Assembly (NCBI GenBank): GCA_021783595.1
Contig: JAJXTS010000012.1
Location: 1-32,495 of the forward strand
DNA from: Chloroflexota bacterium
Lineage (GTDB): Bacteria > Chloroflexota > Limnocylindria > Limnocylindrales > CSP1-4
DNA length: 32,495 bases
Reading direction: 5' to 3'
The position numbers and the translations under genes are program-made. Below, piece after piece: positions 27,009-32,400 of this stretch (the stretch's first letter is position 1; each line of letters opens with the position of its first letter). The notes under the pieces were generated by a model. That model ran no database searches and was not told where the DNA came from. It worked only from the letters and a program-made list of their open reading frames with translations.

Positions 27009-28277
27009 ATGACGGACACCCGGCCGCCCGAGCCCCGGGCGCCCATCGAGCAGCGCCTGCGCGACGCGGGGCTGCCGCCCCTCGCCCGCCACGCGTGGCT
27101 CGAGATCGACCTGGACGCACTCCGCGGCAACCTGGCAGCTCTGCGTTCGGCCGTCGGCCCGGGGGTTCGGGTCGAGCCCGTCGTCAAGGCGGACGCCTAC
27201 GGCCACGGGGCGGTGCCGGTGGCGACGGCGCTCCAGGCGGCCGGTGCCGACGGCCTGTCGGTGGCAACGATGGACGAGGCCGTGGAGCTGCGCGACGGGG
27301 GAGTGACGCTGCCGCTGCTGGTGATCTACCCGGTGCCAGTCGCGTGGCTGGGCGAGGCGGCCCGGCGGGGGATCGCGGTGGCCCTCGGTGCCGGAGCGGG
27401 CGCGGCCGAGGCCCTGGCCGCCGCCCGCGCGTCCGCGGCAGGCGACGTGCCGCCGCTCGAGGTCCACCTCGAGGTGGACACGGGCCTCGGGCGGGGCGGC
27501 GTGCTGCCGACGGACGCAGCCGAGGCGATCGACGCCGTGCTCGCCACGCCGGGCGTGCGCCTCGGTGGCGTGTGGACCCACCTCGCGGCGGCTGACGACA
27601 CGGCGCTCACGGTCGCGCAGGGTCGCCGGTTCACGGCCGCGCTGGCACCGCGCGCGGGCGCGGTGATCTGGGGCGGCACGCCGCAACTCGGCGTGCGCCG
27701 GCACCTCAACGGCAGCGGCGGTGTCCTGAGCGACGCGGTGCCGCGCTGGGACGCCGTGCGAGCCGGCCTCTCGGTCTACGGCCTCGTCCCCGACGGGCTG
27801 GTCCCTCCCGCCTCGACCGCCGTGGCGGCCGGGGCGCTTCGGCCGGCGATGGCCGCCTACGCCCGGCCCGTGCGCGTCCTCGAGCTGCCGGCGGGCCACG
27901 GCGTGTCCTACGGGCCCTCGTTCGTGACCGCCCGGCGGACGCGGGTCGCCACCCTGCCGTTGGGCTACGCCGACGGCTGGCGCCGGTTCCTCTCGGACCG
28001 GGCGGTCGCGCTCGTGCGCGGCGTCCGGGTCCCGCTGGTCGGCCGCGTGGCGATGGACGCCGTCATGGCCGACGTGACCGACGTGCCCGGCGAGCCGGTG
28101 ACCGAGCGCGACGAATTCGTGCTCCTGGGGGCCCAGGGCGGGGGGCGGATCACCGCTCACGAGCTCGCCGCGACAGGCGGGACGATCAGCTACGAGGTCC
28201 TGACCGGAATGTCTCGCCGGTTGGCACGGGTGTACCATGCCGCCGGTTCGCCCGTCGGGGTCCGAACCCTCGTCTAG
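27009..28277 (+). CDS. alr: Alanine racemase
   Basis: Alr converts L- to D-alanine for peptidoglycan and needs PLP. The product is 422 aa, slightly long because of about 28 N-terminal residues before WLEIDLDALRGNL. The PLP lysine is K60 in VVKADAYGHG and the catalytic tyrosine Y301 in GHGVSYGPSF. Other blocks are HLEVDTGLGRGG (153-164), VRAGLSVYGL (250-259), LPLGYADGWRR (316-326) and LVGRVAMDAV. It follows nnrD by nine bases, a frequent nnr-alr order, and joins glmM and glmS in wall-precursor supply. Confidence 0.95.
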   Translation: MTDTRPPEPRAPIEQRLRDAGLPPLARHAWLEIDLDALRGNLAALRSAVGPGVRVEPVVKADAYGHGAVPVATALQAAGADGLSVATMDEAVELRDGGVTLPLLVIYPVPVAWLGEAARRGIAVALGAGAGAAEALAAARASAAGDVPPLEVHLEVDTGLGRGGVLPTDAAEAIDAVLATPGVRLGGVWTHLAAADDTALTVAQGRRFTAALAPRAGAVIWGGTPQLGVRRHLNGSGGVLSDAVPRWDAVRAGLSVYGLVPDGLVPPASTAVAAGALRPAMAAYARPVRVLELPAGHGVSYGPSFVTARRTRVATLPLGYADGWRRFLSDRAVALVRGVRVPLVGRVAMDAVMADVTDVPGEPVTERDEFVLLGAQGGGRITAHELAATGGTISYEVLTGMSRRLARVYHAAGSPVGVRTLV

Positions 28278-28287
28278 GGGAGGTCGA

Positions 28288-28842
28288 GTGGCCAGGATCG
28301 AGCTGTGGAACGGGGACATCTGCGACCTGGAGGTCGACGCGATCGTGAGCCCCGCCGCCACCTCTCTCTGGATGAGCGCGGGCCTCGCCGGCGAGATCAA
28401 GCGAACGGGTGGAGACGCGATCGAGTTCGCCGCCGTCCGTCAGGGCCCCGCCAGGCTCGGTGACGCCATCGTCACCCCGGCCGGACGGCTCGCCGCGCAC
28501 GTGGTGATCCATGCCGTGTCCCTCGAGCGGGACCGGCGCACCAGCGCGGCCGCCATCGACGCCGCCACCCGCAGCGCCCTGCGCCGCGCGTCCGAGCTGA
28601 GCCTCGCGAGCATCGCGTTCCCCGCGCTCGGGACCGGGATCGGCGGGTTCCCGCTCGATGACGCCGCGCGAATCGTCGTGGGGGCCGTGCGAGACGAGCT
28701 GGCCTCCGCCCCGTCCCTCGAGCGCGTCGTGTTCGCGCTCCGCGGCGCGGCCGCCTACGCGGCGTTCGAGCGGGCCCTGACCGAAACCCGGCCCACCCCG
28801 CCGCCCCCGCTCGGGATCCGTCAGGACGGAGCGCGGGCATGA
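28288..28842 (+). CDS. Divergent macrodomain protein
   Basis: A 184-aa stand-alone macrodomain, a fold that binds ADP-ribose or related nucleotides. GTG 28288 has GGGGAGGT upstream. Domain blocks are WNGDICDLEVDAIVSPAA (7-24), GGDAIEFAA (41-49), GDAIVTPAG, VIHAVS and GTGIGGF (115-121). The usual NAAN/NPAN is SPAA at 21-24 and the GGG loop is WMSAGLAG, so the asparagine needed by hydrolases such as MacroD is missing. It overlaps the next gene (ATGA). Binding without hydrolysis is possible; function unknown. Confidence 0.85.
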   Translation: MARIELWNGDICDLEVDAIVSPAATSLWMSAGLAGEIKRTGGDAIEFAAVRQGPARLGDAIVTPAGRLAAHVVIHAVSLERDRRTSAAAIDAATRSALRRASELSLASIAFPALGTGIGGFPLDDAARIVVGAVRDELASAPSLERVVFALRGAAAYAAFERALTETRPTPPPPLGIRQDGARA

Positions 28843-29129
28843 GCTTCAGCCCCGAGCCCGTGGACGAGCGTCGCGAGGCGCTGGTGGAGGCCGTCGCGCG
28901 GGAGATCCGCCTTCGGGGCCTCACCGGGCCCGCGGTGCACTTCCTCGAGGCGAGCCGCCCGTACCGGCCCCTCGGCGCCCCCGCCATGCTGTTCTTCGAC
29001 CCGCGGGTGCGGGAGCTGTTCGGCGGCGAGACCCCGTCAGCCACGGAACTCCTCCGCGACGACGTCGGGATCGAGGCGCTCATCGATCGGCTCGAGGACC
29101 TGGACGAGCCTGACGACTGGGACGCCTAG
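28839..29129 (+). CDS. Conserved-looking small protein of unknown function
   Basis: A 96-aa protein that I do not recognise. It is charged at both ends (an acidic C-terminus EDLDEPDDWDA) with a more hydrophobic centre around residues 37-60 (SRPYRPLGAPAMLFFDPRVR). There is no cysteine pair, signal peptide or clear DNA-binding motif. ATG 28839 overlaps the macrodomain gene stop by four bases, so the two are translationally coupled and probably work together. A long hairpin follows directly, which makes this the last gene of the operon. Confidence 0.75.
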   Translation: MSFSPEPVDERREALVEAVAREIRLRGLTGPAVHFLEASRPYRPLGAPAMLFFDPRVRELFGGETPSATELLRDDVGIEALIDRLEDLDEPDDWDA

Positions 29130-29223: not shown

Positions 29224-29229
29224 TAGGAT
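29224..29229 (+). promoter_or_regulatory. -10 box of the MutL-like gene, leaderless type
   Basis: TAGGAT ends seven bases before GTG 29237, so the transcript should begin at or very near the start codon. The intervening CGGGCAG has no good Shine-Dalgarno. No -35 hexamer is evident at 17 bases. The site follows the hairpin at 29131-29164 in a 107-base gap. Confidence 0.5.
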
Positions 29230-29236
29230 CGGGCAG

Positions 29237-30844
29237 GTGAGCACCCCGTCACGCGTTCTCGCCACCGTGGACAGCGGCACGGCCACCGCGGCCGTCTCCC
29301 TGATCGGCAGGGCCGGCGGGCGGCATCGGCTGCTCGGTTCCACCGCCGGGCCGGTCGGCACGCCCGTCGAGGCGCTGCTCGAGCGCGTCCGCCGCCGCGT
29401 CGCCGGAGCGGACCCGGACCTGGCCCAGGCGCTCGGCATCGGACTCCCCGGGTCCGCCGCCGACGTCCCCCGGCTCGCCTCCCGGACGGCCCCGCCGCCG
29501 CAGCTTGCCGCCATCGCGGTCACCGAGCGCGCGCTGCGGCCGCTCGCGGCTGTCGCGGAGACGGCGGGCTGGCAGGTGCGGGCCCTGGTGGTCCAGGGGG
29601 CAGACATCCTGAAGCTGGCGACCTCGCTTGCCGACGGCCGCGTGGACGCGATCCTCGCGGGTGCCTCCGAGCCGCCCGCGGCCGACGAGCGGCACCTGGT
29701 CGCCGAGCTGGGGAACCTGGTCGCGGCCGCCACCGAGCGCCGCCCCGACCTCGTCACCGTGCTGGCGGGGGGCCTCGCCACGCCCGGCGGCCGTACCGAG
29801 TCGCTGTTCCGCGAGGGCCGCCCGGGCGCGACGGTCCTCGCCCCGTCGCCGACCGACGCCGACGGCGAGCCGCTGCGCGCCATCCTCGACGGGCTGCGGG
29901 GCGGTGGCGACGACGGCCGACGCGCTCTCGCGGTGGCCGCCGGCTCGCTCGCGACCGTGCTTCGCCGCCGTATCGAGGTCGTCGAGATCGGGCTCGCGGG
30001 CGGCTCGCGGACCCTGGCGTCGTGGCGTCCGGGCGACCGGGCGTCGGTCAGGACGGGCTCCGTGGCGCGGGCAGCGCTGCTCCCCCGATCGTTCACCGAC
30101 GAGATCCTCGACGAGATCATCAGGTGGCTGCCGATCCCGCTCGATCGCCTGCGCACGCGCGATCGCCTGCGCGAGATGGCCGCCTGCCCGTGGGGCGACG
30201 CCGCCGGCGACGGCGCCGTCCTCCGCCTGGCGGCAGCCCGGGCGGCGGCCGCGCGCCTGCTGGCGCGCACGCCTGCGATGGACGGCCTGCCCGCGGCCGA
30301 TATCGTCATCGCCTCCGGCGGCGCCTGGCAGGCGGCCCCCGCCCCCGCCACCGCCCTCGCCCTCGCGGACGTCGTCCGGCGCCCCGGCGCGCGGGCCCTG
30401 GGCCTGGACCACGCGCGCGCGCTGGCGCCGCTCGGCACGCTCGAGGACGAGGACGCTCGCCTGCGGCTCATGGCCGACCTTTTCGACGATCTGCTGGTGC
30501 CGCTCGGCACGGTGGTGCAGGTCGCCGGGCTGCGCCCGCCGCGGAGCGTGGGCACGCTGGTCGTCCGCGGGTCGGGCGACCCGATGGAGGTTGAGCTCCA
30601 GCCGGGCGGCATCGACCTCATCGACGTGCCCCCCGGCGAGCGGGCGACCGCGGAGTTCCGCTTCCGCGACCCGGTGGACGTCGGCACGCGGACCAAGCGC
30701 GTGGACCTCGGCGTGACCGGTGGCCTCGGGGGCCTGATCGTGGACCTGCGCGACATCCCCATGCGCCTCCCGGATCGGCTCGAGCCGCGGCGGGAGCTCC
30801 TCGCGGGATGGCAGGCGCCCACGTGGCCGGGGCTCGGCCAGTGA
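29237..30844 (+). CDS. MutL-like (glutamate mutase L family) ASKHA ATPase
   Basis: A 535-aa protein that looks like the MutL family named after the accessory ATPase of glutamate mutase. An actin/Hsp70-like phosphate motif opens it (VDSGTATAAV, residues 11-20). Repeated folds follow: ILAGASEPP and VLAGGLATPGG (139-185), VEIGLAGGSRT (249-259), the adenosine-side IVIASGGAWQAAP (356-368), LVPLGTVVQVAGL (420-432) and a closing GGLGGLIVDLRDIPMRLP (495-512). No mutase subunit genes lie nearby. GTG is the start; the stop overlaps the next gene. I infer an ATPase role, but the client is unknown. Confidence 0.75.
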   Translation: MSTPSRVLATVDSGTATAAVSLIGRAGGRHRLLGSTAGPVGTPVEALLERVRRRVAGADPDLAQALGIGLPGSAADVPRLASRTAPPPQLAAIAVTERALRPLAAVAETAGWQVRALVVQGADILKLATSLADGRVDAILAGASEPPAADERHLVAELGNLVAAATERRPDLVTVLAGGLATPGGRTESLFREGRPGATVLAPSPTDADGEPLRAILDGLRGGGDDGRRALAVAAGSLATVLRRRIEVVEIGLAGGSRTLASWRPGDRASVRTGSVARAALLPRSFTDEILDEIIRWLPIPLDRLRTRDRLREMAACPWGDAAGDGAVLRLAAARAAAARLLARTPAMDGLPAADIVIASGGAWQAAPAPATALALADVVRRPGARALGLDHARALAPLGTLEDEDARLRLMADLFDDLLVPLGTVVQVAGLRPPRSVGTLVVRGSGDPMEVELQPGGIDLIDVPPGERATAEFRFRDPVDVGTRTKRVDLGVTGGLGGLIVDLRDIPMRLPDRLEPRRELLAGWQAPTWPGLGQ

Positions 30845-31869
30845 CCGGCGAGCCCGCGACCGACTGGCGCGACGAGATTCCCCGGAGGGCGCTCGTGGAG
30901 GCCGGTTTGGAGACGACCGTGCCGCTGCCGCCTGGCGACCGGCCGCTGGTGGGCCCGGGGACGGCCGTCATGCCGGGCGACCTGCTGCTCGAGCACGTGC
31001 GCGATCCGAGGGTGGACGAGGTGGATGTGCGGCTGCCGGAGGGCGAGCGCCCTCTGGCGGGCGGCCGCTGGGCCCCGGTGCCCGGCCGTCGCCGCCACGC
31101 CGACCGAACAGCCGACGGGGAGCTGCTGGTCCCCGTGCCCGGCAAGGCCACGCGCTGGCGGCTGGTCACCGGCGACCACCGCGCACCGACCACGTCCGCC
31201 GTGTCGGGGATCGTCACCGAGGTCCGTCCCGGCGCCATGATCCGCCTCCGGGTCGCCGGCCTGGCGCTCCGCGGAACGCTCGCGGCCGGCGCGACCTCGC
31301 GCGGTCGGCTCGAGTTGGCGACGGACCCGTTCGGCGAGCTCCGTCCCGGAGGCATCGACGTGGGGCGGACCGGCAGCATCCTGGTGGTCGGCTCGCGGAT
31401 CGACGCCGAGGCGCTCACCCGGGCGCGCGCCATGGGCGTTCGGGGAATCATCGTGGCGGCGATCGCCGGCAAGGACCTGCGCGATTTCCAGGCCTCCGAG
31501 CGTCGGCAGCGGGCCGCCCTCCACATGCCCGAGCCGTTCGGCGTGCTCGCCCTCGACGGCGCGCTGCGGCGCCCGATCGCGACCCCGGTGGCGGCGCTGC
31601 TCGAGCGGCTCGCCGGCCACGAGGTCGCGCTCCTCGTGAACCCCCCGGCGCTCGTGTTCGACGGCTCGGCCATCGATCTGCCCGAGGTGGGGCCCGACTG
31701 GGTCCGCGTGCGGTCGGGTCCCAACTTGGGCGCCGAGGGGCGGGTGCTCGAGCCGGCCGGCCTGTGGCGGTTCGCTGGCGGCGTCCACCTCGAGGCCGCC
31801 CGCGTGCAGCTCGACGGCGAGCCGAGCCCGGTCGTCCTGCCTCTGTGCGATCTCGAGCGCTTCGGCTGA
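30841..31869 (+). CDS. Barrel-sandwich/KOW-like protein coupled to the MutL-like gene
   Basis: A 342-aa protein without a name I can support. GTG 30841 overlaps the MutL-like stop (GTGA); an in-frame ATG at 30808 would give 353 aa but has a weaker ribosome site. Residues 38-50 and 119-150 look like barrel-sandwich halves (GPGTAVMPGDLLL; SAVSGIVTEVRPGAMIRLRV), as in RnfC-like or lipoyl-like folds but without the lipoyl lysine motif. Residues 178-215 form an alpha/beta unit (GSILVVGSRIDAEALTRARAMG). A KOW-like end starts at 287 (WVRVRSGPNLGAEGRVLEP). It probably forms a functional pair with the ATPase. Confidence 0.75.
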   Translation: MTGEPATDWRDEIPRRALVEAGLETTVPLPPGDRPLVGPGTAVMPGDLLLEHVRDPRVDEVDVRLPEGERPLAGGRWAPVPGRRRHADRTADGELLVPVPGKATRWRLVTGDHRAPTTSAVSGIVTEVRPGAMIRLRVAGLALRGTLAAGATSRGRLELATDPFGELRPGGIDVGRTGSILVVGSRIDAEALTRARAMGVRGIIVAAIAGKDLRDFQASERRQRAALHMPEPFGVLALDGALRRPIATPVAALLERLAGHEVALLVNPPALVFDGSAIDLPEVGPDWVRVRSGPNLGAEGRVLEPAGLWRFAGGVHLEAARVQLDGEPSPVVLPLCDLERFG

Positions 31870-31912: not shown

Positions 31913-31918
31913 TACCCT
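31913..31918 (+). promoter_or_regulatory. -10 box of tsaE, leaderless type
   Basis: TACCCT ends five bases before GTG 31924 and eight before ATG 31927, in a 54-base gap. The transcript should begin at or next to the start codon. A 7-bp inverted repeat upstream (CCGGGCG 31874-31880, CGCCCGG 31900-31906) may close the preceding transcript. Confidence 0.45.
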
Positions 31919-31923
31919 CCGGC

Positions 31924-32400
31924 GTGATGCCCCACCCTGCCCCCCGCGAGCGCGTCGTCGAAACGCACGACCCCGCGGCAACGCGTGATCTCGCCGCGCG
32001 GCTCGCCCGCGCGGCCCGCCCGGGCGACCTGCTGTGCCTGGTGGGCGACCTCGGCGCGGGCAAGACCCAGTTCGCCAAGGGGTTCGCCGCCGGCCTGGGC
32101 GTCGATGGCGTCGTGAGTTCGCCCACGTTCGTGCTGATGGCCGAGTACGCGGGCCGGATCCCGATGTTCCACCTGGACCTCTACCGCCTGGCGGACGCCG
32201 CCGACGCGCTCGCCGGCGGGCTCCTCGACGAGCGTCAGCTCGAGGGCGTGGTCCTGGTGGAGTGGGCCGAGCGGCTGGGCGACGCGCTGCCTGCGGGGCG
32301 GCTCGACGTGCGCATCGACGGGACCGGCGACGAGGACCGGACGATCACGCTGCGGGCCGGGTCGGACGCGTACACGCGGTACCTGGCGGCGGCGGCATGA
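31924..32400 (+). CDS. tsaE: tRNA t6A synthesis ATPase TsaE
   Basis: TsaE is the small ATPase that, with TsaB and TsaD, makes N6-threonylcarbamoyl-adenosine in ANN-decoding tRNAs. The product is 158 aa. The P-loop GDLGAGKTQFAKGFA lies at about residues 42-56, SPTFVLMAEY near residue 65 and MFHLDLYRL near residue 81; WAER near residue 113 is the next family block. The start may be GTG 31924 or ATG 31927, one codon later; a nearby -10 box suggests a leaderless transcript. The stop overlaps the tsaB start (ATGA), a common pairing. Confidence 0.93.
   Translation: MMPHPAPRERVVETHDPAATRDLAARLARAARPGDLLCLVGDLGAGKTQFAKGFAAGLGVDGVVSSPTFVLMAEYAGRIPMFHLDLYRLADAADALAGGLLDERQLEGVVLVEWAERLGDALPAGRLDVRIDGTGDEDRTITLRAGSDAYTRYLAAAA

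Follow-up and report, generated by a model that had tools for sequence, protein, structure and literature searches.

Positions 29237-30844 of the window (the whole stretch of DNA that was analysed, 32,495 nucleotides) are occupied exactly by an open reading frame of 535 codons with a GTG start, encoding a MutL-like protein. The gene order around it is glmM - glmS - acpS - nnrD - alr - macro - 96-aa ORF - MutL-like - DS - tsaE, where DS denotes the partner gene described below (Table 1). The genome is a metagenome-assembled genome (MAG), 85.6% complete, of an uncultivated class that is abundant in soil and freshwater (PMC13212565). Five families of this class, f1 to f5, are compared here, f1 being the window's own family and f5 a sister family; the genome survey covered Chloroflexota, with 301 genomes of the phylum and 177 of the class. 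A scan of genome contigs with the single sequence found only a 92%-identical MAG.

The MutL-like ORF is real, conserved and under purifying selection, with dN/dS values of 0.07-0.32 in four pairwise comparisons. Relatives in f1 repeat the gene order of the window, the macro gene or the small ORF being missing in some, and almost every relative has its orthologue in the same neighbourhood. tsaE lies on the same side of the MutL-like/DS pair in families f1-f5 and is directly adjacent to it in most loci. Of 18 aligned f1 sequences, 15, the window's among them, carry a TAG[GC]AT box at -12/-13 relative to the start codon; in f1, the gene thus apparently stands behind a leaderless promoter of its own, while in f5 it lies within an operon. 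Three observations concern the neighbours. The 96-aa ORF, which matches no Pfam or NCBIfam family, is unusually conserved: in one relative it is at 100% identity, against 92% for the MutL-like protein. The macro-domain protein (window 28237-28842; Pfam 9.8e-25) adjoins alr and is kept in many, not all, relatives. Finally, TACCCT at 31913-31918, shortly before the tsaE start, is possibly a second leaderless -10 box, a hint that leaderless genes may be common here.

Table 1 Features of the locus and of the fused relatives. Coordinates are window positions unless a locus is named.
Feature	Position	Strand	Evidence
alr (alanine racemase)	27009..28277	+	Pfam, synteny; in f5, four membrane genes sit between alr and the MutL-like gene
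96-aa ORF, upstream neighbour in f1	28839..29129	+	f1 loci keep it beside the MutL-like gene; one f5 locus has it after alr
TAGGAT, -10-like box 7 nt before GTG, candidate leaderless promoter of the MutL-like gene	29224..29229	+	f1 alignment
MutL-like (orphan) gene, predicted ASKHA fold, 535 aa	29237..30844	+	ORF and translation, orthologue alignments, AlphaFold model, PDB fold matches
Degenerate PHOSPHATE-1 motif, residues 8-22 (LATVDSGTATAAVSL)	29258..29302	+	motif alignment with GlmL and f5
Degenerate PHOSPHATE-2 motif, residues 245-262 (RIEVVEIGLAGGSRTLAS)	29969..30022	+	motif alignment with GlmL
Adenosine-type motif DIVIASGG, residues 355-362	30299..30322	+	motif alignment
Extra C-terminal domain, about residues 404-535, signature GGLGGLIVDLRDIPMRLP (495-512)	30446..30841	+	end of the GlmL alignment
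DS, coupled partner, 342 aa: beta domain, alpha/beta domain, C-terminal KOW-like domain	30841..31869	+	overlap, alignments A3 and A5, AlphaFold
tsaE, conserved downstream neighbour of the MutL-like/DS pair	31924..32400	+	Pfam TsaE 1.1e-34
Fused MutL-like/DS loci of f2	L207:4924-6600, L208:4730-6400, L209:4537-6270		

The initial annotation had read a MutL-family ATPase layout from this protein. Its elements are present, with a D-x-G phosphate-like motif at residues 12-14, ASGG at 359-362 and GGLGGLIVD at 495-503, but MutL itself is detectable only through f5. The window protein alone has no Pfam, NCBIfam or PDB-sequence match, none of 18 f1 orthologues (alignment A1) gives a match to Pfam MutL or to NCBIfam GlmL, and the f1 profile compared with five GlmL-type proteins is not significant (hhalign 1.4%). 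Relatives in f5 match the f1 profile A1 over its full length (best E about 1e-58), and the same sequences match Pfam MutL, up to 5e-24. When f5 is included (alignment A2), the comparison with GlmL reaches 94.8% in hhalign (E 4.9e-8) over residues 6-399. Because the f5 bridge sequences match both profiles, the link to MutL and the ASKHA fold is real but distant. The AlphaFold model (pLDDT 93.0, pTM 0.93) finds ASKHA proteins in the PDB: acetophenone carboxylase, PilM, exopolyphosphatase, Hsp70 and corrinoid activators. With E-values of 1e-6 to 1e-4 and TM-scores of only 0.2-0.3, these matches identify the superfamily only. As judged from the profiles and the predicted structure, the window protein is an ASKHA-fold protein derived from MutL and far diverged from it. 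Weak PF13941 matches (about 13-17 bits, positions 220-270) also occur in f1 genomes, at sites away from the MutL-like locus.

The initial annotation had singled out the conservation of the catalytic residues as worth checking; the adenosine-site GG is kept and the phosphate motifs are degraded. PHOSPHATE-1 reads DFGSTYTK in GlmL, DxGSAWTK in f5, mostly DxGSxxT[RK] in orphans of other classes and DSGTATAA in the window, where the Lys is gone. PHOSPHATE-2 is D[LV]GGATTD in GlmL and EIGLAGGSR in the window, the TTD having gone from the window protein and from all orphans aligned. GlmL and every f1 row shown retain the GG of the adenosine motif. That the PHOSPHATE-1 Lys and the PHOSPHATE-2 acid have been lost while this GG persists argues against an ATP-driven motor or reactivase, and the protein would most likely be a nucleotide-sensing or purely structural scaffold. 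At the other end of the protein, GlmL aligns only up to about residue 399. A signature of the GG-GLIxDxRxxPLxLP type is found in orphans, the window protein included, and is absent from GlmL. GGLGGLIVD, earlier taken for the closing block of MutL, is therefore the signature of an extra C-terminal domain lying beyond the end of GlmL, and marks the orphan branch.

The second gene to which such orphans had been said often to be coupled is present. In the window, the stop of the MutL-like gene and the start of DS overlap in GTGA at 30841-30844, and an ATGA or GTGA overlap of this kind is seen in 22 of 24 loci. In the AlphaFold model of DS (pLDDT 91.1), a beta-rich N-terminal part is followed by an alpha/beta middle and then by a KOW-like end, which KOW in Pfam matches weakly. 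Weak RnfC_N or biotinyl-lipoyl matches in some relatives suggest a barrel-sandwich domain. In the fold search, the sole PDB match below E 0.001 is NusG of T. maritima. DS is found in 152 of the 177 genomes of the class, in 52 of the 53 best ones, and even in genomes of about 1 Mb.

Elsewhere in the phylum, the MutL-like gene keeps other company. It is usually gene 5 of a phylum-wide six-gene module in the order DUF6754, 5-TM protein, TM-soluble-TM protein, second 5-TM protein, MutL-like, DS. Transmembrane segments were counted by a simple hydropathy scan: the first protein (DUF6754, PF20539) has one at each end, the second and fourth have 5-6, and in the third two segments flank a soluble domain; long DWL-motif repeats often stand before this, and some loci also have a zinc ribbon. 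The four membrane genes lie upstream of the MutL-like gene in 17 of the 23 loci outside the class and are missing in the other six, some of which are at contig ends; DS follows the MutL-like gene in most. In the open-access literature, searches on DUF6754, orphan MutL, GlmL and ASKHA with glutamate mutase returned nothing relevant, and the module appears not to have been described before. The TM-soluble-TM protein can be large: at L143:8895-13337 and L145:3274-5811 it carries up to dozens of DWL/AWL repeats (e.g. GSDVPAWLREEAAPAA), with a zinc ribbon in L145.

Within the class, the complete set of six lies between alr and tsaE in f5, the four membrane genes being present in every locus with enough upstream sequence except one (L086). 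None of the four was found upstream in f1-f4 loci, that of the window included, and PF20539 was not found genome-wide in f1. The profile of the second 5-TM protein matches in 18 of 22 f5 genomes and gives a single 17-bit match in f1, which is not credible. As read from these gene contents, the window's lineage has lost the four membrane genes and kept the last two. Conversely, six Chloroflexia-like loci outside the class (L143, L147, L149, L151, L155 and L170) have the four membrane genes with DS not detected at the locus, L151 ending near there. Since the MutL-like gene occurs with the membrane genes minus DS and, in f1, f3 and f4, with DS minus the membrane genes, it is the common member.

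The five families form a graded series. In f5, the module is full and the PHOSPHATE-1 motif is kept; in f1, the pair remains and the phosphate motifs are degraded; in f3 and f4, the pair remains and the N-terminal region of the MutL-like protein is shortened or degraded, its PHOSPHATE-1 region being lost or degraded; and in f2, whose genomes are about 1 Mb, a single protein of 556-577 aa lies between alr and tsaE, its first part matching the MutL-like profile and its last part DS. First readings of f4 and f2 as having no MutL-like gene were wrong, a shortened version being present in f4 and the fused form in f2, and L196 and L201, at first taken as f4 matches, do not represent the locus. Retention of the pair even at about 1 Mb suggests that it is likely to matter, and the series from full module to pair, truncated pair and fusion makes its core function testable. 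Strict coupling, co-retention and the fusion in f2 point most likely to one stable complex of the two proteins.

Our preferred reading, to which we give a probability of about one half, is that the gene encodes a repurposed MutL/GlmL-type ASKHA protein. It would belong to an orphan branch found throughout Chloroflexota and defined by its extra C-terminal domain and its gene company, not by a B12 mutase. In the ancestral state, the six genes would have encoded a membrane-associated complex with this protein as its soluble subunit, and the membrane proteins that accompanied it suggest a docking role like that of PilM, as an analogy of working and not of membership. With the four membrane genes gone from the window's lineage, the pair must do something independent of them. 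The two proteins would be made by coupled translation from the apparently leaderless promoter of the MutL-like gene and would most likely assemble into a stable two-protein scaffold, nucleotide-sensing or structural, and not into a mutase reactivase. Against this reading, the gene order could stem from shared regulation instead of a complex, the membrane genes are missing from six of the 23 loci outside the class, the pair of f3/f4 lies beside methylmalonyl-CoA mutase genes, and the fold matches have low TM-scores. A bolder version, which we advance tentatively and consider somewhat less probable than its negation, is that Chloroflexota possess a previously undescribed membrane machine made of a MutL-derived ASKHA subunit, a KOW-ended partner and four membrane proteins, two of them of the 5-TM type and two anchored by TM segments and bearing soluble domains. 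The class would have shed the membrane part of this machine stepwise, until in streamlined freshwater genomes a single fused protein was left, and the ASKHA-DS core would have an independent, non-ATPase function in nearly every genome.

The best alternative to the scaffold is that the role of GlmL gave rise to a chaperone or reactivase acting on a different B12 enzyme, for which methylmalonyl-CoA mutase (MCM) is the most plausible candidate. A striking argument for it comes from f3/f4, where genes for MCM, a methylmalonyl-CoA epimerase-like protein (glyoxalase) and a GATase directly precede the pair in each of the 8 loci whose upstream sequence is long enough. The window's own genome also has a B12-binding gene resembling the MCM small subunit, and the corrinoid reactivase RACo is among the fold matches. 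However, that small-subunit gene is followed by a MeaB/ArgK-type GTPase (named from sequence), the usual chaperone of MCM, and none of the loci read from f1, f2 and f5 has an MCM gene close to the pair. Moreover, the PHOSPHATE-1 region is degraded or gone in the f3/f4 proteins, f2 genomes have a B12-binding protein although their MutL part is strongly reduced, and in other classes the gene accompanies membrane proteins. We regard a helper of MCM as unlikely. In most of L195, L198, L199, L200 and L211-L214 (f3/f4), a gene of the penicillin-acylase family lies further upstream of the MCM, epimerase-like and GATase genes.

Equally doubtful is an ASKHA factor tied to the present neighbours, either in tRNA t6A synthesis (tsaE, tsaB) or in the making of amino-sugar and peptidoglycan precursors (glmM, glmS, alr). 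Such a link would account for tsaE following the pair in each of the five families, and TsaB and TsaD are themselves ASKHA proteins. The association would be one of synteny inside the class: outside it, the module was not found beside t6A or precursor genes, and within it the upstream neighbours differ among f1, f3/f4 and f5, and the f1 gene has its own promoter-like box.

That the gene is a relic on its way out and kept by chance might be read from the vanished phosphate motifs, the vanished membrane genes and the truncation and fusion in f2-f4. We consider it very improbable, however, as dN/dS is low, the -12/-13 box is kept in 15 of 18 sequences, the overlap with DS is conserved and DS persists in 52 of the 53 best genomes, even at about 1 Mb.

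There remains the mutase that MutL/GlmL serves. Glutamate mutase E (PF06368) was found in 0 of the 177 genomes of the class, the window's own and 53 high-quality ones included, and neither glutamate mutase E nor a B12-binding domain was matched on the window's contig, in keeping with the earlier remark that no such gene lies in the window. In the phylum, PF06368 is above cut-off in 4 of 301 genomes and PF13941 in 121; with this ratio of about 30:1, the reading of PF13941 proteins as glutamate mutase helpers misleads in Chloroflexota, and orphan MutL-like proteins do occur in this phylum, as the initial annotation had stated. With the GlmL model, five GlmL-type reference proteins reach 367-610 bits; with PF13941 they reach at least 455 bits, compared with about 60-250 bits for most orphans. 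In a tree of 47 sequences whose root is not fixed and which does not settle the grouping of the other orphans, the GlmL-type set forms one clade (100/100) and f1 another (100/100). The window protein is not GlmL, and a glutamate mutase in the same genome together with a place inside the true MutL clade, which the initial annotation named as decisive against its view, was looked for: PF06368 is absent and the clade is separate. A true GlmL whose mutase was missed in an incomplete assembly, a reading that could draw on the distant homology to PF13941, is barely credible and already refuted for the clade by the genome counts, the tree, the extra domain that GlmL is without and the GlmL motifs gone from the window protein. 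A role other than mutase reactivation, as first suspected, is thus strongly favoured by the sequence comparisons. One phylum member (G339; L142:4233-8027) carries a natural fusion of 1264 aa, whose N-terminal part resembles, by eye, a B12-dependent mutase and whose C-terminal part, with 270 bits to PF13941, is a GlmL-type MutL that retains its motifs intact.

Compared with known systems, the window protein shares with GlmL/MutL (PF13941, NF040745, TIGR01319), the accessory protein of glutamate (methylaspartate) mutase, an alignable region of about residues 6-399, reached through the f5 bridge, and the order of the ASKHA motifs. It differs in having no mutase, in the loss of K and TTD, in the extra domain of about 130 aa, in its neighbours and in its clade. 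The GlmL-related ornithine degradation protein Or-4 (NF040744) is matched partly by orphans of other classes (1.5e-22, 80 bits), far below the cut-off of 600, and no ornithine degradation genes were seen around orphan loci. RACo-type reductive activators of corrinoid proteins have the ASKHA fold and are among the fold matches (4c1n and 3zyy), at low TM-score, whereas no corrinoid protein is a neighbour in the window's lineage. DUF6754, which opens the module in f5 and in other classes, was not found in the window's family. DS resembles NusG/Spt5 KOW proteins in its KOW-like C-terminus and in the fold match to T. maritima NusG; with a TM-score of 0.16 and no NGN domain recognised, we rejected DS as a NusG. 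In manner of working, the protein may be compared with PilM of type IV pili, an ASKHA protein bound to inner-membrane proteins. PilN/O/P-type partners were not identified and the TM-score is only 0.24-0.33, so that the likeness is a works-like analogy only; PilM is among the best PDB fold matches (5eoy, E 1.7e-6) and, like the MutL-like protein of the full module, is a cytosolic ASKHA protein whose gene accompanies those of membrane partners. In Chloroflexota, a B12-enzyme helper fold has moved into an apparently uncharacterised, membrane-linked gene module.
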